DNA of 39,500 bases, from the IMG/VR virus record IMGVR_UViG_3300031839_001685, positions 1 to 39,500 of that record, one strand, 5' to 3'. The position numbers were made by a program, and so were the translations under genes. The notes under the pieces are model-generated. The model did not search any database, was not told where the DNA came from, and saw nothing but the letters and a program-made list of their open reading frames with translations. The stretch comes from a virus. Below are positions 2,211 through 19,480 of the stretch, in pieces (positions within the stretch are counted from its first letter, which is position 1; the number at the start of each line of letters is the position of its first letter).

Positions 2211-3491
2211 CTAGAGTTGTGCCAGCCAGGGGTTTCGCCGGCGAAAGTCCGCGCGCAGGCGATAGGCGTTGGCGTGGTGGAAGTGACCGGCGTAGGACGC
2301 GATCACGGTGCGGATCTGGGCGCGCTGGGCGGTGGTGGCGGTGACGCGGCCGGCGGTGTCGACGTGCTGCTGCTGCCAGGCGAACAGCTTTTCCCGGGCG
2401 TGCTGGACGACACGCTTGCGCACCAGGGTGTGGGTGGGGCGCACGACGTAGCCGAGGAAGTCGATCCCCTGGGTCAGCGGCGCGAGCTTGATCTCGGCTT
2501 TCAGCCGCAGGGCGAGGCGGTCTGCAAGGAAGGCCTCGATGCGCTGCTGCCACTCCACCAGCTGCTGGCGGTCGTGGTGGATGAGGACGAAGTCGTCGAC
2601 GTAGCGCAGGTAGCGTTGGGCATTGAGCTGGTGTTTGACGAACTGATCCAGCTCGTTCAGGTAGACGTTGGCCAGGAACTGTGATGACAGGTTGCCGATC
2701 GGCAGGCCGCAGTCACGCGCGGCGTTGGCGAGTTGCTTGTGACGCGGGACCAGGGCGCGCTCGGGGGGGGCGCAACGGTGTTTGACGCCGGCGGCGGTCG
2801 GGTGCTGGCGCAACAGGGCGTGGACGATGCGCTGATAGGCCTCGGCCACGTTGTGGCGCTGCATGCGGTCCCGCACCAACTGCCAGAGAATGCGCCGGTT
2901 GATGCAGTAGAAGAAGTTGGCGATGTCCAGTTGCAGGTACCAGCCGCCGCCCTGGCCGGACTGCACCTGGCGGGTGAAGGCCTGCAGGCGCCGCACGGCG
3001 GCATGGGTGCCTTTTCCGGCGCGGTTGGCGTAGCTGTCGTGGATGAACATCCGTTCGTAGATGGGCTCCAACCGCGGCACCACCAGGTGGTGGACGACGC
3101 GGTCGGCGAAATCGGGCGCGTGGATCTCGCGGGCCTTTGGTGACCGTGCCACGAAACAGGTCGACGGCCGCGGCGACCAGGTGCCCGTGTTGATGGCGTC
3201 GAGGATCTCGAACAGTTCGTCGATCCACCGGGTCTCGAAGCGCAGCTGGTTGACGCTGGGGCGTTTGTGGCGGCGCGCCTGTTTCCAGGCGTGCACCAGG
3301 TCATCGAACCCCACCGCATCGTGACACTCACTGGCGGGCGCGAGCCGGCAGCCCAACACGTAGCCGCTGTTGTTGCGGTTGTTGTTGTTGACGTTGCCGT
3401 TGTGCAGGTTCACGTACCACGCGTTCTCGGACGCATCCCCGCCCACTTGCGACCTGGCCGCGCATCCACTGGGGTAGCACGGCTTCGTCAT
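2211..3491 (-). CDS. DGR reverse transcriptase (template repeat in frame at its N-terminus)
   Basis: Retroelement reverse transcriptase that copies the TR RNA with errors at adenines and drives mutagenic retrohoming into the VRs. From the ATG at 3491 it is 426 aa. The catalytic Asp lies in YLQLDIANFF (about 189), the DGR-type motif IGNLSSQ at about 263-270, and YVDD at 297-300. The ATG at 3491 overlaps the avd stop as ATGA, which supports coupling. Translation from there reads the Asn-rich TR (roughly residues 20-56) as an N-terminal extension. A GTG at 3314, just before the conserved FDDLVHAWKQARR region, is an in-frame alternative giving 367 aa. Group II intron domains (maturase X, HNH) are absent. 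Confidence 0.95.
   Translation of the reverse strand: MTKPCYPSGCAARSQVGGDASENAWYVNLHNGNVNNNNRNNSGYVLGCRLAPASECHDAVGFDDLVHAWKQARRHKRPSVNQLRFETRWIDELFEILDAINTGTWSPRPSTCFVARSPKAREIHAPDFADRVVHHLVVPRLEPIYERMFIHDSYANRAGKGTHAAVRRLQAFTRQVQSGQGGGWYLQLDIANFFYCINRRILWQLVRDRMQRHNVAEAYQRIVHALLRQHPTAAGVKHRCAPPERALVPRHKQLANAARDCGLPIGNLSSQFLANVYLNELDQFVKHQLNAQRYLRYVDDFVLIHHDRQQLVEWQQRIEAFLADRLALRLKAEIKLAPLTQGIDFLGYVVRPTHTLVRKRVVQHAREKLFAWQQQHVDTAGRVTATTAQRAQIRTVIASYAGHFHHANAYRLRADFRRRNPWLAQL
3325..3434 (-). repeat. DGR template repeat (TR)
   Basis: This 110-bp segment aligns without gaps to VR1 (3960..4069) and over 108 bp to VR2 (4672..4779). On the coding strand it is packed with AAC codons at just the positions that vary in the VRs. 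TR against VR1 differs at 14 template adenines. TR against VR2 differs at 13 adenines and one T. At the GC-rich 3' end (initiation-of-homing side) one base differs from both VRs: G in TR, C in the VRs (plus strand 3329 against 3964 and 4676). It lies within the 5' end of the reverse transcriptase frame. Confidence 0.95.
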
Positions 3492-3934
3492 GGTTTGGCC
3501 TCCTGGCCGGAGGCGGAGCGGGTACTCAGTGTCAAGGGTCGCTCCGGCCGCGCGGCGGCGGCAGGACTCTGCCCTGTACGATGCTCATTGCGGGCGCGCA
3601 GCATGGCGCCCGATTGGCGGCCGACATCCCGTGCCAGCCCCGCCAGCAGCTCGAAGTTGCCACGCGAGGAAAACACGTTCAGCCGGTGCCCGGTCTGCAG
3701 GTGAAGCTTGAGGCGGTCATTGCTGGCGATGAGCTTGCCCACGATCTCGAACTGCCGCTGCGGATACCGTGCGGCCCGCAGGTAATCGTGCGACAGCAGC
3801 GCGCCCTGCAGCGCCAGCTTTCGGAGATCGGCGCCCAACAGGTATTTGTGGGCACGCGGGAAGCGCGAGACGCTGCGCTCGATCTCGGTCAGCAGGCGCT
3901 CGCTGGCGCGAGCGATCGGGGCAATGGTGCTCAT
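3488..3934 (-). CDS. avd: DGR accessory variability determinant (Avd)
   Basis: 148-aa basic helical protein. Avd forms a pentameric four-helix-bundle barrel that binds the reverse transcriptase and TR RNA and is needed for homing. The pattern RASERLLTEIERSVSRFPRAHKY, then LGADLRKLALQG, then FEIVGKLIASNDRLKLHLQ fits the Avd/S23-like four-helix family. It sits between the VR1 gene and TR, as in Bordetella-type DGRs. The ATG at 3934 is preferred over the TTG at 3958, which lies in the VR1 downstream element. The stop overlaps the reverse transcriptase ATG. The C-terminal 30 residues are probably disordered. Confidence 0.88.
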   Translation of the reverse strand: MSTIAPIARASERLLTEIERSVSRFPRAHKYLLGADLRKLALQGALLSHDYLRAARYPQRQFEIVGKLIASNDRLKLHLQTGHRLNVFSSRGNFELLAGLARDVGRQSGAMLRARNEHRTGQSPAAAARPERPLTLSTRSASGQEAKP

Positions 3935-3935
3935 T

Positions 3936-3966
3936 GTCAGCTCAGGCCCAAATGCCAATCACTGAC
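3936..3966 (-). other. Conserved hairpin-like element downstream of VR1
   Basis: TCAGGC(3942-3947)...GCC(3954-3956)...CTGA(3962-3965) can form a bulged stem-loop, and a second GTCAG (3936-3940) can pair with CTGAC (3962-3966). A closely related block sits downstream of VR2 but not of TR, where the base that differs breaks the pairing. DGR targets need a hairpin here for efficient homing, so this is the candidate element. The stem is weaker than in Bordetella phage. Confidence 0.45.
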
Positions 3967-4627
3967 TGGCGGGCGCGAGCCGGCAGCCCAACACGTAGCC
4001 GCTGCCGTCGCGGTTGCCGTAGTAGACGTAGCCGTCGTGCAGGAGCACGCACCACGCGAGCTCGGACGCGGTAGCGTGCTCGGTGGCGGTCCAGTACCAG
4101 TCGTCCGTCGGGTGGTTGGGGAACAGATCGGTATTGAGCGCCGGCTCGCAGCGGGTGCGGTCGATGATGAGCTGGGCGTAGCGCAGCGGGGCCAGTTGCC
4201 AGTCGTCGGCGCCGAAGAGGCTGATCTGCGCCGCCAGCTCTTTGGCGTGCTGCCAGTTTTCGGCCTGCGGCGGTTTGCGGCTGTCGAAGGTGACCCCGAA
4301 ATCCGGCAGCAAGACGGCGCAATGGTGCGCGCTTGTCTCGTTGCCATCGGATCCCAGCTTGACCATTCGCGGATTGAAAAAGCGCTCCACGTCCATGGTT
4401 GGCGTAGAACGCCGCAGGAAGGCCTCCAGGGCCTCGTCCTCGGCCTTTTCGGTGCGCGCCTTCACGGTTTGCTCCAGCAGCGTCTGCAGGGTGTCGCGGG
4501 CGCTGTCGTCGGGTGCCAGCGCGATGACAGTCTCGAAGCGCGTGCGGATGTCGGCTTCGAGCGCGTCGCGGGCTTGCTTGCGGATCTGCTGCTCGAGGGC
4601 AGCGAGACGGGGTGCAGTTGCAGTCAT
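3959..4627 (-). CDS. DGR target protein 1 (coiled-coil plus DUF1566 with VR1)
   Basis: 222-aa protein. Residues 1-75 are helical and charged, a likely coiled coil. Residues about 100-222 form a DUF1566-type C-type-lectin fold (WQLAPLRYAQLIIDRTR, then YWTATEHATASELAW). The last 36 residues are VR1 (3960..4069), ending in the invariant CRLAPASQ just before the stop. Variable positions lie in the surface ligand-binding part, as in Bordetella Mtd. There is no signal peptide, so it is likely cytoplasmic or packaged in the virion. GGAG lies before the ATG. The ligand is unknown. It is transcribed with the early genes, away from the tail module. Confidence 0.9.
   Translation of the reverse strand: MTATAPRLAALEQQIRKQARDALEADIRTRFETVIALAPDDSARDTLQTLLEQTVKARTEKAEDEALEAFLRRSTPTMDVERFFNPRMVKLGSDGNETSAHHCAVLLPDFGVTFDSRKPPQAENWQHAKELAAQISLFGADDWQLAPLRYAQLIIDRTRCEPALNTDLFPNHPTDDWYWTATEHATASELAWCVLLHDGYVYYGNRDGSGYVLGCRLAPASQ
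3960..4069 (-). repeat. DGR variable repeat VR1
   Basis: Gap-free 110-bp match to TR. All 14 substitutions in the variable part are at adenines of the TR coding strand: for example AAC to CTC, GAC, TAC or GGC, and TAC to TGC. The only other difference is the homing-side base (TR G, VR C). Adenine-only change is the signature of DGR mutagenesis. The stop codon of target 1 lies at the downstream edge. Confidence 0.95.
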
Positions 4628-4653
4628 GGGTGACTCCAGGTGTGGGGTGAGAG

Positions 4654-4678
4654 GTCAGGCCAAAAGCCGATCACTGAC
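4654..4678 (-). other. Conserved hairpin-like element downstream of VR2
   Basis: GTCAG (4654-4658) pairs with CTGAC (4674-4678), with an inner GGC...GCC around CAAAA. The block matches the VR1 downstream element almost base for base and lies between the two target genes. The role in target-primed homing is inferred. Confidence 0.45.
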
Positions 4679-5126
4679 TGGCGGGCGCGAGCCGGCAGCC
4701 CAACACGTCGCCGCTGCCGTCGCGGTCGTTGCCGCCGACGAGGCCGTCGTGCAGGTTCACGTACCACGCGAGCTCGGACCACTCGACATGGTTGTCACGC
4801 GTCCAGTGCCAGTGAGGCTTGATGCCCTTGAGGGCGGGGTCGGTCGGCAGCGCCGGGTTGTAGCGCGTGCGGTCGACCAGTTGGTTCAGTTCGTCAGCGC
4901 TGGCGGCCTGCCAGCCGCCGCCGGAAAGGGTGCAGCTAATGGCCAGCTCCAAGCATTCGGCATGCGGGCGCTTGTTGTCCGGGTTGAGGGTGGGGGTGTA
5001 CTCGCGGTGAACCCACGCACCCTCTTCGTTGCGGACGAGGATGGAGGTGTCGCGGAAGCAGCCGTCTTCGAGGATCACGAAGCGCGGGCCTGGGGAGGCG
5101 GGTGCAGCAAGAAATGCGGGGTCCAT
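4671..5126 (-). CDS. DGR target protein 2 (DUF1566 with VR2)
   Basis: 151-aa protein made of one DUF1566 C-type-lectin-like domain: GGGWQAASADELNQLVDRTRYNP, then HWHWTRDN, then SELAWYVNLHDG. The last 36 residues are VR2 (4672..4779) and share the CRLAPASQ ending with target 1. It lacks the coiled-coil N-terminus of target 1. There is no signal peptide or membrane segment. GGAG precedes the ATG at 5126, within a 13-bp leader string (CTCCGGTGGGGTT on the plus strand) also found before the gene at 5156. It is the first gene of the DGR cassette in transcription order. The ligand is unknown. Confidence 0.9.
   Translation of the reverse strand: MDPAFLAAPASPGPRFVILEDGCFRDTSILVRNEEGAWVHREYTPTLNPDNKRPHAECLELAISCTLSGGGWQAASADELNQLVDRTRYNPALPTDPALKGIKPHWHWTRDNHVEWSELAWYVNLHDGLVGGNDRDGSGDVLGCRLAPASQ
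4672..4779 (-). repeat. DGR variable repeat VR2
   Basis: Gap-free 108-bp match to TR. Thirteen substitutions are at TR adenines. One is not: TAC in TR and VR1 reads GAC in VR2 (a T-to-G change at plus 4709). The homing-side base is C, as in VR1. VR1 and VR2 differ from each other at many sites, so the two targets have diversified independently from one template. Confidence 0.95.
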
Positions 5127-13267: not shown

Positions 13268-14041
13268 ATGAGCCATCTCACGGGTCGTCAACTGGTGGGT
13301 GAGCTGCAGCGCCTGGGCCTTGGGACCTGGACGCCCGACGCGGTGCGGCAGTGGATCCGCGAAGAGCCGCCGTGTCCGATTGCGGAGCCGGCCGACCAGG
13401 GCAAGCCGCACCGCTACGCGCTGCTGGACGTGCTGCACTGGCTGCAGGCCCGCACGGCCCGTGATCGCAACCGCGGTTACACCACGGCCGGCGCCGAGCA
13501 GCTGGTGGAGCGTCTGCAGCGCGTCATCGCCGCGTTCGTTACTTCCGGATCCGCGCCGCAAGCGGCGGGGTTGACCTCAACGCTTCCGGCTACGCCGACC
13601 CCCGCGCCTTCCGCTGAACTGTTCGCGCCTGGCGAGCCTGCGCCGGCCCCGCTTTCGCCGGCGAAACCCGCAGCACCGCTGGAGGCTTTCGACTTCGGTG
13701 GCGCGAGTGAGCTGGAGGCGGTGCTGGAGGTGGTGCGAACCAACCGGCCGCAGGCCTGGAAGGCAGTCGAGGAAGCGCTCAACCAGCGCCGCAAGCGGCT
13801 GGAGGCGGAGGGGAAGCTCGTGCCGATCGACGATGTGCAGCGCACTGTCGATACACAAGCCCTGGCCATGCGCAGCGTCGCCCAGGCGCTGGTGATGCCG
13901 CTGGCGCAGCGGATCCCGGATGCCAGCACGTTGGACCAGCGGCGGCTGCTCATCCAGTCGGCGATCGACGGCATGCTGCAGCGCCTCGCCGACGAGGACA
14001 CCGAGGCCCTGGCCACCGGTGAAGCGGAGGCCAGCGCGTGA
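13268..14041 (+). CDS. Terminase small subunit (Nu1/DUF1441-like)
   Basis: 257-aa protein. The N-terminus has a winged-helix of the Nu1 type (HLTGRQLVGELQRLGLG, then TPDAVRQWIREEPPCPI, then YALLDVLHWLQ). A Pro/Ala-rich linker (about 105-140) leads to a helical C-terminal half that should bind the large subunit. It recognises phage DNA at the packaging site. The linker DNA carries a TTTCGCCGGCGAAA palindrome (13653..13666). The stop overlaps the GTG of the large subunit. Confidence 0.85.
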   Translation: MSHLTGRQLVGELQRLGLGTWTPDAVRQWIREEPPCPIAEPADQGKPHRYALLDVLHWLQARTARDRNRGYTTAGAEQLVERLQRVIAAFVTSGSAPQAAGLTSTLPATPTPAPSAELFAPGEPAPAPLSPAKPAAPLEAFDFGGASELEAVLEVVRTNRPQAWKAVEEALNQRRKRLEAEGKLVPIDDVQRTVDTQALAMRSVAQALVMPLAQRIPDASTLDQRRLLIQSAIDGMLQRLADEDTEALATGEAEASA

Positions 14042-16071
14042 GCGCCGCCCTGGCACTGTCACCGCAAGCCCGGTCGGTCCTGCGCCGCGCACGGCGCCAC
14101 TACGCCCCGCCGGAGCGCATGAGCGCCCGCCAGTGGGCCGAGCGCTACCGCGTGATGCACTCGGGGCCGTTCGCTGGCAATCGGTTCAGCCTCGCCGCCA
14201 CCCCCGCCCTCGCCGGCCTGTTCGCTGCGTATGAGGATCCGCTGGTACGCGAGATCTGGTGCGCCAAGTCCAGCCAGCTCGGTTGGACCCAGGGCTTTGT
14301 CCTGAACTGCATCGGCAAACAGATCCACCTCGATCCCTGCCCGATGCTGGTGCTCACCGCGAAAGACGGCGATGCGCGCGGGTTCAGCCGCAAAAAGCTT
14401 GAACCGGCCATCAAGGCGTCGCGTCCGCTGCTGGAGCGGGTGCCGGTGGGCGGCAAGGTCACGGGGTCGAGCTGGGACTACAAGTCATTCCCCGGCGGCT
14501 GGCTGCAGATCGCCGGCGCGAACAGCCCGGGTAACGTCAAATCGACCGACTACAAGCGGGTGTTCGTCGAAGAGCCTGACGACACGTCCCGAAACGTGCA
14601 CGGGCAGGGCGATGCGATCGCGCTGGGCCGCGAGCGCTACAAAGCGTTCGCGGATGGCAAGCTCATCGTTGGCGGCACGCCCACCACCATGGGGCTCAGC
14701 CGGGTCTGGGCGGGGCTGGAGCGCACCGACAAGCGCCGCATGTATGTCGCCTGCCCGCATTGCGGCCACGAACAGACTTTGCGCTGGGAACAAGTGCGCT
14801 GGGACCAGGACGCGCTCATCCACCACCCGATTTACGGCACCCACCAGCCCGAAACGGCCCGCTATGAGTGCGAAGCCTGTTGCACGCCGGAGCAACCGGA
14901 CGGCCGCTGGACCGATTCCGAGAAAAACGATGCGGTGCTCGTGGCGTCAAAGCGGCCGGATCACGGCTGGCGTGCCACCGCGGCGTTCAGCGGCGCGGCC
15001 GGGTTCCTGATCAACGAGCTGCACAGCACATTTTCGGAATCGCGGTTCGAAGTGCTGGTGCGCAAGTTCCTCGAAGCGCAGCACGCCCTCGACAACGGCG
15101 ACGACACGCTCATGCGGGCGTTCGTCAACAACCAGCTCGGCGAACCCTGGGAGATCAAGAGCAACGCACCGGAGCTGGACGCCCTGGTCGAACGCGGCGA
15201 GGACTATGCGCTGTGGACGGCGCCAGCCGAGGCGCTGGTGGCCACCTGTTTCGTCGACGTGCAACGCGGTGGCGAACAAAGCGGCGAGGCGCGACTTGAG
15301 TATCTGATCGTCGCCTGGGGGCGGGGGCTGGAATCGTGGCGGGTCGCGCGTGGCCATGCCCTCGGCAACCCGCTGGAAGAGGCGACGTGGGACGAACTCG
15401 ACCGCCAGCTCGCCGAGCCCATCCGAAGCGCCGGCGGCGGCAGCCTGCCGATCACGCTGATGGGCGTCGACAGCGGTGACGGCATGACTCAGGAGGCCGT
15501 GCTGCGCTACTGCCGGCGTGCGCAGCGGCAGGGGCGCGACGTGATCCCCACAAAGGGCTCCAGCGTGCCCGGCAAGCCTATTTTCAGCACGCCGCGGGCG
15601 CTCGATCATCTACACAACGATCGCGCCAGCAAGTACGGCCTCAAGCTGTACTTGGTCGGGACCGACACCGCGAAGGATGCACTCGTCTCACGGCTCAAAC
15701 TGACCGGGCGCGGCCCTGGCCGCATGCACTGGCCGGCCGCGATCGGCACGGACTACCTCCAGCAGATCACTGCGGAGGTCAAAGTGCCGGGCCGCAACGG
15801 CAAAGAGAGATGGGAAGTGCTCGCGGGGCGGCGGAATGAAATGACCGACTGCGAAGTCGGCAACCTGCACCTTGCCTACAAGCTCCGGCTGCAGGCGATG
15901 CCGGAGCAATACTGGCTCGATGTCGAGTCGCGGCTGCGGCAGCCGTCGCTCCTGACGCCGGTAGATGCCCCTGCCGCGCCTGGCGCAGCATCTGCAGCGA
16001 CGGAACCGCCACCTTCCGCGCCCGTCGGCCGCCCGGTCACCGGCAGTCAGCCATTTCGGGGGTTTCGGTGA
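14038..16071 (+). CDS. terL: Terminase large subunit (GpA family)
   Basis: 677-aa packaging ATPase-nuclease. The pattern YAPPERMSARQWAERYRVM, then FSLAATPALAGLF, then WCAKSSQLGWTQGF (Walker-A-like, about 74-88) is diagnostic for the GpA family of lambda-type cos phages. A Cys/His cluster CPHCGHE...YECEACC (about 240-285) and a C-terminal nuclease region (GVDSGDG about 477-483) are present. The GTG start overlaps the small subunit stop as GTGA. The family suggests cos-type packaging with cohesive ends. Confidence 0.95.
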   Translation: MSAALALSPQARSVLRRARRHYAPPERMSARQWAERYRVMHSGPFAGNRFSLAATPALAGLFAAYEDPLVREIWCAKSSQLGWTQGFVLNCIGKQIHLDPCPMLVLTAKDGDARGFSRKKLEPAIKASRPLLERVPVGGKVTGSSWDYKSFPGGWLQIAGANSPGNVKSTDYKRVFVEEPDDTSRNVHGQGDAIALGRERYKAFADGKLIVGGTPTTMGLSRVWAGLERTDKRRMYVACPHCGHEQTLRWEQVRWDQDALIHHPIYGTHQPETARYECEACCTPEQPDGRWTDSEKNDAVLVASKRPDHGWRATAAFSGAAGFLINELHSTFSESRFEVLVRKFLEAQHALDNGDDTLMRAFVNNQLGEPWEIKSNAPELDALVERGEDYALWTAPAEALVATCFVDVQRGGEQSGEARLEYLIVAWGRGLESWRVARGHALGNPLEEATWDELDRQLAEPIRSAGGGSLPITLMGVDSGDGMTQEAVLRYCRRAQRQGRDVIPTKGSSVPGKPIFSTPRALDHLHNDRASKYGLKLYLVGTDTAKDALVSRLKLTGRGPGRMHWPAAIGTDYLQQITAEVKVPGRNGKERWEVLAGRRNEMTDCEVGNLHLAYKLRLQAMPEQYWLDVESRLRQPSLLTPVDAPAAPGAASAATEPPPSAPVGRPVTGSQPFRGFR

Positions 16072-16361
16072 GCGCCCGCAGCATCGATTTCCTGGCCGCG
16101 CTGCGCGCCGACATCGTCCGTGTGCTCGTCGAGCAGACCGGTGCGCCCGAGGGGCATGTCATGGGCATGGCAGCGCAGATCATCGAGGTCACCCAGCGGC
16201 GTTTCGGCGCGGACAGCGTCTACATTCGTAAACCTGCATACGACCCGGACGCCGTGCTCTCCGATTTTGACGGCCGCAATCACGCGGCCGTGTGCCGGAA
16301 ACATCAGATCTCGCGACGGACGCTGTATCGAGTGCTGCACCGGCAGCGGCGTGGGTCGTAG
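16068..16361 (+). CDS. Mor-family transcription activator
   Basis: 97-aa protein matching the Mor/C activator family of phage Mu: an N-terminal dimerisation part (LAALRADIVRVLVEQTG), the strand-rich YIRKP segment, and a C-terminal HTH (GRNHAAVCRKHQISRRTLYRVLHRQ). Mor-type activators bind dyad sites just upstream of -10 elements and turn on middle or late genes. The two 26-bp dyads at 18109 and 22141 are candidate targets. GTG start overlapping terL as GTGA. Confidence 0.9.
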   Translation: MSARSIDFLAALRADIVRVLVEQTGAPEGHVMGMAAQIIEVTQRRFGADSVYIRKPAYDPDAVLSDFDGRNHAAVCRKHQISRRTLYRVLHRQRRGS

Positions 16362-16408: not shown

Positions 16409-16437
16409 TTGCAATAGGAACAGTGTTCCTGTATCGT
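16409..16437 (+). promoter_or_regulatory. Promoter with a palindromic operator filling its spacer (acr-type promoter)
   Basis: TTGCAA (16409-16414) and TATCGT (16432-16437) are 17 bp apart. The spacer contains a perfect 15-bp palindrome, AGGAACA-G-TGTTCCT (16416-16430). Binding there would block RNA polymerase. Aca proteins are known to repress acr operons through such inverted repeats, and an Aca1-like gene ends this operon. The leader also has a small GCCGG/CCGGC hairpin (16467-16482) and an AGGAG site at 16489-16493. Confidence 0.85.
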
Positions 16438-16499
16438 GGCAGTCACTGGATAGGACATCCAGCCCTGCCGGGGGTTTCCGGCCTCAATAGGAGATCATC

Positions 16500-16913
16500 A
16501 TGACTGGCTACACCAACTACGCTGTGACCATCACCGAATGCGGCCCCGGCCGCGAGTTCATCGTCAATGTCCGCGTGCCGCACGACGCCGTGCGTGAGCG
16601 TGACGGCAGGCCCGTTACCGCGGCCGAGGCGGCTGTCCTGGCTCGTCAGCGTGCCATCCGGAGCCGCTTCGGCTCTAGCGCGGTCTGGGTGCCCGACAAC
16701 AGCCTGGCCGGTTACGGGCAGGTCGGCCGCTCGGTCGAGACCGGCGTCAGCACCATTACTGCCAGGAGCCGCTGGGACGCATCCCCGCAGCGGCCGTTCC
16801 CCGTTGACGTGGAGGGGCAGCGCCGCCACGACGAGATGATGGATGACATGCACAGTCAGGAGGACGCCGCGTTCTACGAATCGTTTGATGACGAGGCGGA
16901 GCCCGCCCAGTGA
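16500..16913 (+). CDS. Candidate anti-CRISPR protein, first gene of the aca1-type operon
   Basis: 137-aa acidic protein (begins MTGYTNYAVTITECGPG, ends in a Glu/Asp-rich tail ESFDDEAEPAQ). I do not recognise a known family. The first 40 residues look like paired beta strands, and a helix with AAEAAVLARQRAIRSRFG follows. AGGAG lies 6 nt before the ATG. It is the first gene behind a strong promoter with a palindromic operator and is co-transcribed with an Aca1 homologue, the association used to discover anti-CRISPRs. The small size and acidic tail fit, but inhibition of CRISPR-Cas is inferred only from context. Confidence 0.75.
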   Translation: MTGYTNYAVTITECGPGREFIVNVRVPHDAVRERDGRPVTAAEAAVLARQRAIRSRFGSSAVWVPDNSLAGYGQVGRSVETGVSTITARSRWDASPQRPFPVDVEGQRRHDEMMDDMHSQEDAAFYESFDDEAEPAQ

Positions 16914-17314
16914 CGTACCGCGTATATTTGCGGACCCCAAATCAGCGGGTCCACCCTGACACCCGCACCGTCACTGAGGATCCATTCGTGGCGGAGGCCG
17001 CATTCAGGGCGCTGATGCGCCGGAGGGAGTTCTGGTGCCTGAAAATGGCGGCAGTGCTCACCGAGGACGGCATCCAGATCGAGTACCGCAGGTTCGACTC
17101 GGTGAAAATCGTAGGGAAATACGGCAGGGTCCAGGAGCGCGGGGGGCACATTCCTGATTGGCCCCGATGGCTCTATCCGCACGACCGCAATAATCCCGAT
17201 CACCCGGAGCCGGAGGCGGATTCGAAATACCTGCCCTGTTATCTGGAGCGTGAGAAATCCACGACGCTAATCCTCGATGACAGGCCGATCCTGCTGACCT
17301 CCCATGACACCTGA
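16910..17314 (+). CDS. Candidate anti-CRISPR protein, second gene of the aca1-type operon
   Basis: 134-aa protein with no recognised family. Residues 1-60 have an alpha/beta pattern (TYRVYLRTPNQRV, then AEAAFRALMRRREFWCLKMAAVL, then GIQIEYRRFDSVKIV). The C-terminal half is rich in Pro, Trp and Tyr. The GTG start at 16910 overlaps the previous stop as GTGA, and the 3' end overlaps the aca1-like gene by 11 bp. The three genes are thus one translationally coupled unit. The anti-CRISPR role is inferred from context. Another phage accessory function is possible. Confidence 0.72.
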   Translation: MTYRVYLRTPNQRVHPDTRTVTEDPFVAEAAFRALMRRREFWCLKMAAVLTEDGIQIEYRRFDSVKIVGKYGRVQERGGHIPDWPRWLYPHDRNNPDHPEPEADSKYLPCYLEREKSTTLILDDRPILLTSHDT

Positions 17315-17543
17315 TGCATCACAGCACGATCCGCGCCCGGAGTACCTCCGGGCGTTGATCACTGCCTCCAATCGGACCCAGCGTGACGTGGCCCTGGCAA
17401 TTGGCGTGAGCGAGCGCCTGCTGAGGTGCTATCTCGCGCCGGTGACAGCAGCGAGCCGGCGCGAGGCGCCGTACCCGGTGCAGTATGCGATTGAATGCCT
17501 GGCCGCTGACGCCCGAGGGCATGGCCATCACAGCGCAGGCTGA
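17304..17543 (+). CDS. aca1: Aca1-like anti-CRISPR-associated HTH regulator
   Basis: 79-aa protein, the same length as Aca1 of Pseudomonas phage JBD30. It shares with Aca1, in order, TPDAS, HDP, a YLR-L helix, the HTH with Q-R and a GVSERLLR-YL recognition part, and an ending with APY.VQ.A.E.LA. I recall the Aca1 sequence from memory and could not align it by program. Aca1 binds inverted repeats in the acr promoter and represses acr transcription after early infection. It is the last gene of the operon starting at 16500, and the palindrome at 16416-16430 is its likely operator. Confidence 0.88.
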   Translation: MTPDASQHDPRPEYLRALITASNRTQRDVALAIGVSERLLRCYLAPVTAASRREAPYPVQYAIECLAADARGHGHHSAG

Positions 17544-17561: not shown

Positions 17562-17735
17562 GCCCCTCGCCCCGCTCTACGGGGAACGTTTTCCCGATAG
17601 TGACCGGCACGCTCAATCACAAACGGTTCATCCCCTCAGTGAGGGGAACGGATTGCCGCCACGAACTCTCGTTCAACCACAATCGGTCCATCCCCAGATC
17701 CCGGGGAACGGTGGCTACCCCGCCCTGCGGGGAAT
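17562..17735 (-). CRISPR. Degenerate type I-E-like CRISPR mini-array (possible RNA anti-CRISPR)
   Basis: Unit 2 (17624..17651) and unit 3 (17684..17711) keep the I-E plan: CGGTYCATCCCC, short loop, GGGGAACGG, 28 nt each. Unit 1 (17562..17589) keeps only the hairpin and GGGGAACG. The GGGGAAC tails start at 17581, 17643 and 17703, that is 62 and 60 bp apart, close to the 61 bp of a 29+32 I-E unit. A fourth hairpin (17718..17735) abuts unit 3. The crRNA sense, judged by the ATGAACCG handle, is the minus strand. No cas genes are present. Ten bases before units 2 and 3 are also alike, unlike true spacers. Tandem terminators are a weaker reading. Confidence 0.7.
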
Positions 17736-17751
17736 AGGCAGATCTATACGG

Positions 17752-17780
17752 AACCTACATCGATGACGACCAGCTATCAA
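17752..17780 (-). promoter_or_regulatory. Possible leftward promoter into the CRISPR-like units
   Basis: On the minus strand TTGATA (17780..17775) and TAGGTT (17757..17752) are separated by 17 bp and would start RNA at about 17745, just before unit 4. This would transcribe the repeats in crRNA sense, antisense to the aca1 operon. Matches to consensus are moderate. Confidence 0.35.
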
Positions 17781-18171: not shown

Positions 18172-18609
18172 ATGCGGCTCATGGGCAACGCGGCGACACT
18201 CCGGGCGGTACTGCAGCGGCACGCGGGGGGCGATGAGGGCACGCCTGGCGTGCTCACCCTGGGCGAGCACCGCTGGTACACGCTGGAGCTGCCCTGGCGG
18301 GGCAACACGGTCCGCAAGAGCTGCATCCCGGCCGGCACGTATCGCTGCGGGCCGGTCAACTCCCCGCGATTCGGCGACGTGTACGGCGTACACGACGTGC
18401 CGGGGCGCTCCCACATTCTGATCCATGCCGGCAACCACGCCGGTGATGTCGACATCGGCCTGCGGTCGGACGTGGAGGGCTGCATCCTGCTCGGATCAAT
18501 CGCGGGCTCGCTGTGGGGGCAGCGCGCGGTGCTGCGATCGCGCATCGCGGTGACGGCATTCCTGGTTGCCGCCGGCGGGCGTGAGATCGAGCTGGAGATC
18601 CGCGAGTGA
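18172..18609 (+). CDS. DUF5675 protein, probable endolysin-position gene
   Basis: 145-aa protein. The pattern LTLGEHRWYTLELPWRGN, then SCIPAGTYRC, then HILIHAGNHAGDVDGCI-type segments with conserved His and Cys, matches DUF5675, a family found in phages where the endolysin is expected. An YkuD-like cysteine-dependent cell-wall activity has been suggested for the fold, but I cannot show it. It begins the lysis cassette after the late dyad. Start ATG at 18172 or 18181; neither has a clear SD. Confidence 0.8.
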   Translation: MRLMGNAATLRAVLQRHAGGDEGTPGVLTLGEHRWYTLELPWRGNTVRKSCIPAGTYRCGPVNSPRFGDVYGVHDVPGRSHILIHAGNHAGDVDIGLRSDVEGCILLGSIAGSLWGQRAVLRSRIAVTAFLVAAGGREIELEIRE

Positions 18610-19109: not shown

Positions 19110-19131
19110 CACGGATGTGGACCCGGGATGA
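18880..19131 (+). CDS. Outer-membrane lipoprotein spanin (Rz1-like), nested in Rz
   Basis: 83-aa frame starting at ATG 18880 inside the Rz-like gene. It opens with a lipoprotein signal peptide and lipobox, TAASIVTCLLLLPAC, so Cys at about residue 16 would be lipidated. The mature part is Pro-containing at first and then helical (LTWRELSDYVLRLYEAAAAAEA), as in many o-spanins. It ends 22 bp past the Rz stop and overlaps the holin start by 17 bp. Confidence 0.8.
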   Translation: MTAASIVTCLLLLPACSTTTPAVRPCSNQWLLQPRPIPAFQGLTWRELSDYVLRLYEAAAAAEADKRAALQQCPEADTDVDPG

Positions 19132-19480
19132 GATGTCGCTGTGGCTGACGCTGACGCTGATCGCGGTACTGGGTGGCCTCGTGAGCTACTACCGGAAAAT
19201 CACCAACGGCGTGATGCAGCACGCGATCTGGCGCCTGGCCGGTGAGCTGGTCACCAGCGCGTTCGCGGGCCTGAGTGCAGCAATGCTGCTGGCGGACGTG
19301 GACGCCAGCCTCGGCTGGAAAGCGGCCATCGTGGGCATCGTGGGCCACATGGGCAGCCGCGCCCTGGACATTTTCGAGGACGTGGTGCGGACCGTGCTGA
19401 TGTCGGCCGCGAACGTCGAGAGGCGGAGGTCCACGTCGGACCGAAAGCCGCCGAGTGCCGATCGTGACGACACCGACTGA
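19115..19480 (+). CDS. Holin (superfamily III / LydA-like)
   Basis: 121-aa membrane protein with segments at about residues 8-25 (LWLTLTLIAVLGGLVSYY), 43-60 (ELVTSAFAGLSAAMLLA) and 67-83 (AAIVGIVGHMGSRALDI), then a charged tail. The pattern LVSYYRKITNG, then SLGWKAAIVGIVGHMGSRALDIFE, fits the phage holin family of the lambda-like P2 LydA group. It times lysis by permeabilising the inner membrane. It sits after the spanins in the lysis cassette. Confidence 0.85.
   Translation: MWTRDEMSLWLTLTLIAVLGGLVSYYRKITNGVMQHAIWRLAGELVTSAFAGLSAAMLLADVDASLGWKAAIVGIVGHMGSRALDIFEDVVRTVLMSAANVERRRSTSDRKPPSADRDDTD

Follow-up and report, generated by a model that had tools for sequence, protein, structure and literature searches.

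A putative Aca1-controlled anti-CRISPR operon with an adjacent cluster of candidate type I-E repeat mimics in a temperate tailed phage

The closest counterparts of the locus described here are the aca1 operons of the Pseudomonas phages JBD30 (AcrF1) and DMS3 (type I-E anti-CRISPR) on the protein side and the RNA anti-CRISPRs (Racrs) on the RNA side. Racrs are repeat mimics that pull Cas proteins into dead complexes, as RacrIF1 does with Cas6f and Cas7f (PMC10651486). Inhibition of a P. aeruginosa system has been shown for two type I-E Racrs, a type I-C Racr is located on one transcript with AcrIC5, and published Racrs co-locate with acr genes (PMC10651486). Candidates with a full match within 100 bp or a partial flank match of more than 70% are dropped by SRUFinder (PMC10651486), and because of this filter unequal clusters, in which two units can be 75% identical and 60 nt apart like R2 and R3 below, fall outside solitary-repeat screens.

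The viral DNA analyzed here, a stretch of 39,500 nt referred to as the window, contains an integrase, ParB, a VapE-like replication gene as well as capsid and tail genes, and therefore belongs to a temperate tailed phage. A terminase-based search for the host revealed only relatives with at most ~40% identity, spread across scattered genomes and contigs. The window also holds a probable diversity-generating retroelement (2211-4779), whose variable-repeat differences are located nearly all at minus-strand A. All features are listed in Table 1.

Table 1. Features of the window, in the order of their position.
Feature	Position	Strand	Remarks
Reverse transcriptase gene	2211-3491	-	part of probable diversity-generating retroelement
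Template-like repeat	3325-3434		probable diversity-generating retroelement
Two variable repeats	3939-4069 and 4652-4779		probable diversity-generating retroelement
Large terminase gene, GpA type	14038-16071		upstream side of acr-aca1 operon
Mor-like activator gene	16068-16361		between terminase gene and operon
acr-aca1 promoter	16409-16437	+	-35 TTGCAA 16409-16414, 17-bp spacer, -10 TATCGT 16432-16437
Putative Aca1 operator	16416-16430	.	perfect 15-bp palindrome AGGAACAGTGTTCCT, inside promoter spacer
5' leader	16446-16482	+	two possible hairpins, CTGGAT-n5-ATCCAG and GCCGG-n6-CCGGC
Gene 1, candidate anti-CRISPR 1	16500-16913	+	137 aa; G637 relative; no family below E 0.01
Gene 2, candidate anti-CRISPR 2	16910-17314	+	134 aa; N-terminal ~65 aa common to unnamed phage/plasmid proteins
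Aca1 homologue, putative operon repressor	17304-17543	+	79 aa; PDB Aca1 1.5e-16; phrog_3865 1.2e-19
R1, repeat-like hairpin	17562-17589	-	ACGTTCCCCGTAGAGCGGGGCGAGGGGC; far end of block, 3' half diverged
Spacer-like interval	17590-17623	-	34 nt
R2, type I-E repeat mimic	17624-17651	-	CCGTTCCCCTCACTGAGGGGATGAACCG
Spacer-like interval	17652-17683	-	32 nt
R3, type I-E repeat mimic	17684-17711	-	CCGTTCCCCGGGATCTGGGGATGGACCG
R4, fourth TTCCCC-N7-GGGG hairpin	17718-17734	-	before R3 on minus strand
Weak promoter-like site TTGATA-17-TAGGTT	17752-17780	-	upstream of R4; relaxed scan only
DUF5675 gene	18172-18609		downstream side of operon
Holin gene	19115-19480		downstream side of operon

A preliminary description of this locus had reported a promoter with a perfect 15-bp palindrome in its 17-bp spacer, followed by three genes joined by GTGA and 11-bp overlaps, and had interpreted the last gene as aca1, the palindrome as its operator and both upstream genes as anti-CRISPR genes. 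The promoter was recovered at 16409-16437, where the TTGCAA/TATCGT pair has 8 of 12 consensus bases, and the coordinates confirm the overlaps of 4 nt (GTGA) between gene 1 and gene 2 and of 11 nt (ATGACACCTGA) between gene 2 and aca1. The codon-position GC of all three genes is like that of the rest of the phage genes. The operon thus stands as described, but the description ended at 17543 and missed four type I-E repeat-like hairpins at 17562-17734.

Significant profile matches bear out the Aca1 assignment of the 79-aa protein (Table 1): the match to solved Aca1 (7c0g) covers residues 2-69, and PHROG 3865 is the family to which JBD30 Aca1 belongs as well (1.1e-45). The 79-aa protein is 43-61% identical to the aligned relatives, among them the ones next to anti-CRISPR genes of JBD30 and DMS3, and several of the 130 phage records with a relative have an annotated AcrF1, AcrF3, type I-E Acr or putative AcrIF7 at the match. 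Furthermore, a scan of bacterial genomes yielded 15 further aca1 loci in Pseudomonas, Rhodanobacter, [Pseudomonas] boreopolis, Dechloromonas, Azoarcus, a zetaproteobacterium and others. Homology, the place of the gene at the end of a short operon of small proteins and an Aca1-type operator palindrome in the promoter together support the view that this protein is an Aca1 homologue.

The palindrome AGGAACAGTGTTCCT is the sole match in the window at up to 2 mismatches (0.06 expected). The identical 15 bp are located ~600 bp upstream of an independent aca1 in L014 ([Pseudomonas] boreopolis), within the sequence TAGGAACAGTGTTCCTA that directly precedes the first gene of the aca1 cluster there. Allowing at most one mismatch of twelve, the core AGGnACAnTGTnCCT was found upstream of aca1 in seven loci (window, L002, L003, JBD30, DMS3, L014 and L017), and at each of them at most one of 200 shuffles of the upstream region was as good. 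In JBD30 the palindrome likewise lies between TTGCGA and TAATCT with 17-bp spacing. Because of the exact copy in L014 and of AGGnACAnTGTnCCT upstream of seven aca1 genes, the palindrome is beyond chance, and this comparative evidence supports the earlier proposal that it is, very probably, the operator of the Aca1 homologue.

The 5' leader of the window differs from the one conserved in other aca1 operons. In 13 of the 20 other aca1 loci (L002, L003, L004, L006, L010-L012, L014, L016, L017, L019, L020 and L023), with hosts among the gamma-, beta- and zetaproteobacteria, a 26-nt leader CATGCCAGCCannnCGGCGAGGCG follows the acr promoter and precedes the first acr gene (for example L010:1230-1255); it was not found in the window. 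This leader could fold as GCC-a-GCC-n5-GGC-ga-GGC, its variation being too small to show covariation, and is possibly an RNA site for Aca1 regulation. A reading as small peptide was rejected because two copies (L003 and L023) hold an in-frame stop. The zetaproteobacterial operon at L023 4822-6213 combines the 26-nt leader with an AcrVA2 homologue and aca1, joined by an ATGA overlap.

Gene 1 gave nothing below E 0.01 in Pfam, PHROG, NCBIfam and PADLOC, no relative in single-sequence searches of phages and IMG/VR, and no sequence match in the PDB or to AcrVA2. Most Acrs are unrelated to one another, and homology to a known Acr is not required. Among 299 genomes of the order of [P.] boreopolis one convincing relative was detected, in G637 (1e-15, 41% over 110 aa), and it overlaps by ATGA a gene for a 369-aa protein that matches AcrVA2 (7ci1) with 8.8e-16. 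Judged by eye, this stretch of G637 also has ParA/ParB-like genes. AcrVA2 homologues are common on conjugative plasmids, and another one overlaps aca1 in L023. Gene 1 thus has a genetic link to anti-CRISPR-type genes in two genomes, to aca1 in the window and, via its relative, to the AcrVA2 homologue in G637, and its reading as an Acr gains support because the sole detected relative overlaps an AcrVA2 homologue. An AlphaFold2 model built from a two-row alignment was of low confidence (pLDDT 63), and a fold search with it gave no match at E ≤ 0.001. A second apparent relative (L046) turned out to be the wrong frame of a gene resembling a fatty-acid oxidation enzyme. In G637, the AcrVA2-like gene, the gene 1 relative and a CRISPR array (GGTTCCCCTGCGCAGGCAGGGATAGAAGG, 61-nt period) lie within 3 kb (L047 8541-11248); the array looks orphan, since no Cas6e was found in G637 by PF08798.

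For gene 2, searches of Pfam, PHROGs, NCBIfam and PADLOC returned nothing convincing, single-sequence searches including phages and IMG/VR returned no relative, and the structure model was unusable (pLDDT 33). A relative (1.5e-6) was found in L124, a viral contig retrieved because it carries type I-E repeats, and via this contig further relatives on Cupriavidus, Salmonella and other plasmids and on viral contigs. The family shares an N-terminal YRVYLR domain of ~65 residues; by eye, the other members extend into a ribbon-helix-helix-like tail (VYLD..S...A..LG.GN.S.GIR.AL), which gene 2 lacks. One reading is that the relatives fuse effector and autoregulator, a job that would be done by the separate Aca1 in the window. 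As the relatives carry this tail, gene 2 may itself be a regulator, and an Acr role is less sure because its domain is common to unnamed phage and plasmid proteins. The earlier claim that both upstream proteins are anti-CRISPRs therefore fared unevenly, with gene 1 strengthened by its AcrVA2 neighborhood and gene 2 less certain, and both would remain predictions; a match of both to well-known non-Acr phage families did not occur in the profile searches.

These observations could also mean that gene 2, and perhaps gene 1, counters another defence or acts as a regulator, and that Aca1 controls an anti-defence operon. The genetic link of gene 2 to aca1 is seen only in the window, and its tailed relatives occur in mixed contexts, namely on conjugative plasmids and in prophages without obvious acr context. 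However, anti-CRISPR genes stand immediately before aca1 in the operons of JBD30 and DMS3, and the gene 1 relative overlaps an AcrVA2 homologue, so that we regard such an anti-defence operon as rather unlikely, if worth keeping in mind.

Within 190 bp after aca1, four TTCCCC-N7-GGGG hairpins are located on the minus strand, R1 starting 19 nt past the end of the gene. In the 39.5 kb the motif has 4 copies, all on one strand and within 165 bp (0.05 expected). R1-R3 have CRISPR-like periods of 62 and 60 nt, and R2 and R3 carry the type I-E repeat with an ATG(A/G)ACCG handle, which R1 and R4 lack. Outside the loop R2 equals the type I-E repeat found in other genomes; R2 and R3 are identical at 21 of 28 positions (75%). 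Each of the four folds as a 6-bp stem with a triloop. From R1 to R4 the inner stem pairs are G-C/U.G, U-A/C-G, G.U/G-C and G-C/C-G, so that all eight pair although the sequence changes; these two inner pairs played no part in the definition of the motif, and by our own arithmetic the chance of such pairing is ~4e-4, assuming that 6 of the 16 base combinations pair. The minus strand of the block has a folding z of -3.1. After R2 and after R3, 11 of the first 14 nt are the same (0.0002 for random local pairs), and the units therefore look duplicated, not independently acquired. A strict sigma-70 promoter and terminator scan of both strands was empty, but it misses the acr promoter too, and the site of the relaxed scan scores 8/12, equal to the acr promoter. 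The Rfam CRISPR models did not match R1-R4 even at E 10, and Rfam otherwise gave chance matches only.

The pattern CGGTTCATCCCCN{7,8}GGGGAAC occurs in 5 of the 299 genomes (one with 102 copies), in three at 61-nt array spacing and in two as single copy, and the reversed pattern in none. Among the IMG/VR records only three contigs besides the window carry the N7 form, and 87 stretches carry the N8 form. IMGVR_UViG_3300017963_000668 (L061, L064, L065) contains four type I-E repeats with differing triloops in one cluster, spaced by 59, 61 and 48 nt. Two or three unequal type I-E repeats at distances of 52-72 nt occur in several further viral contigs, and some of these clusters may be host arrays in misassigned contigs. 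Around 15 other genomic aca1 loci and in five viral contigs with aca1 no repeat mimics were detected, so that the coupling to aca1 has been seen once. The second gene downstream of the repeat cluster in IMGVR_UViG_3300017963_000668 is a DUF1456 gene, and such genes also accompany an AcrVA2-like gene on Pectobacterium plasmids, which makes DUF1456 a possible anti-CRISPR-associated gene. In another viral contig (L063 2886-2950) a type I-E repeat mimic is closely followed by the type I-C-like repeat GTTTCAATCCACGCCCCGGAGGGCGACAC, which may be a pair of adjacent Racrs directed at different subtypes.

The block could be a decayed CRISPR fragment, or plain hairpins such as terminators, with no anti-CRISPR function. 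With no handle in R1 and R4 and no more than 75% identity between R2 and R3, a captured mini-array may have decayed; the degenerate, unequal repeats, the empty strict promoter scan and the fact that R4 and R1 are mostly hairpin fit this explanation. It is at odds with inner stems that are still paired despite sequence change, with a handle kept in two copies, with a scan that detected no hairpin of terminator type followed by a T run, with a full repeat pattern that is rare in the 299 genomes and there mostly array-spaced, and with the unequal type I-E repeats that stand in clusters on other viral contigs. We assume that a block without function is unlikely.

Still less can be said for a real acr-aca1 operon accompanied by a CRISPR mini-array, with which the host Cascade would be turned by two spacers on competing phages. 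In its favour, the intervals measure 32 and 34 nt, three of the repeats are in register, the last one has a degenerate 3' end, which is frequent in terminal repeats, and viral examples with one or two spacers are known (PMC11656645). Yet known mini-arrays carry host-identical repeats (PMC11656645), whereas R2 and R3 match at only 21 of 28 positions and R1 has no handle; at most one repeat of the block could equal that of the host, because the repeats differ among themselves. In addition, the 11 of 14 leading nucleotides common to both spacers suggest duplication, and blastn of the intervals against 50,697 phage records gave no spacer match. Taken together, a mini-array appears improbable. That the plus-strand block, which follows aca1 directly in operon direction with no terminator found between, is part of the operon transcript and masks host pre-crRNA repeats as antisense RNA is very improbable, since such pairing competes with the hairpins, their stem being palindromic, and only on the minus strand does the handle sequence make sense.

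We therefore return to the block as a Racr-type element. R2 and R3 have the sequence and predicted fold of the type I-E repeat and lie close to acr-type genes, and the block would accordingly be a cluster of Racr candidates; it is filed as a Racr-like cluster, not as a solitary repeat unit (SRU), because four hairpins lie within 175 bp. By sequence and predicted folding it mimics type I-E repeats; expression, binding and inhibition we infer. These mimics beside the operon point specifically to type I-E as the probable target.

On balance, we hold it to be reasonably probable that the temperate tailed phage carries an Aca1-type anti-CRISPR locus made up of a protein arm and an RNA arm. One promoter would drive gene 1, gene 2 and aca1, and Aca1, to judge from known Aca1, would bind the palindrome between -35 and -10 and shut the operon after an initial burst. 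The gene 1 protein, and probably the gene 2 protein too, would block CRISPR-Cas. Read on the minus strand, the block would yield at least one small RNA, with up to four hairpins that resemble the type I-E repeat, two of them with a full 5'-handle. The host Cas6e and other Cascade subunits would bind these hairpins in non-productive complexes, as with Racrs, and the cluster would supply several hairpins per transcript. Such an arrangement suggests that protein and RNA decoys are combined against the same defence. More tentatively, and with a good chance of being wrong, we propose a poly-Racr, a tandem set of unequal type I-E mimics whose stems and loops have diversified while pairing is kept; its place next to an Aca1-controlled acr operon would let the protein and RNA inhibitors act jointly.

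The locus would add two anti-CRISPR protein candidates outside Pseudomonas aeruginosa phages and give a comparative definition of the Aca1 operator. A full-text literature search, with most subscription papers outside its scope, found no paper combining anti-CRISPR, Racr and aca1, and this would be the first aca1 operon found together with mimics of the type I-E repeat. Should the cluster function, RNA decoys of phages also come as multi-hairpin arrays, not as solitary units alone, and many of them may have been filtered out of surveys; the similar clusters on other viral contigs, with two to four unequal type I-E repeats each, would then be a class that solitary-repeat screens exclude by design.

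Compared with known systems, the window agrees with the operons of JBD30 and DMS3 in having Aca1 last, overlapping the preceding gene, and a AGGnACAnTGTnCCT palindrome between -35 and -10. It differs from them in its two unrelated upstream genes, in one such palindrome instead of two, in lacking the 26-nt leader of 13 of the 20 other aca1 loci, in its phage type with a GpA-like terminase, and in the repeat mimics behind aca1. To the AcrVA2 family the connection is indirect, running through one homologue that overlaps the sole gene 1 relative and a second that overlaps aca1, whereas gene 1 itself has no AcrVA2 match. Viral CRISPR mini-arrays share the ~61-nt period and the spacer-like intervals with the block, but its repeats are not identical and its intervals have no known spacer target. 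The type I-E Racrs (PMC10651486) are likewise phage-borne, non-coding copies of type I-E repeats beside acr-type genes; they are solitary units, whereas the block consists of four unequal hairpins.
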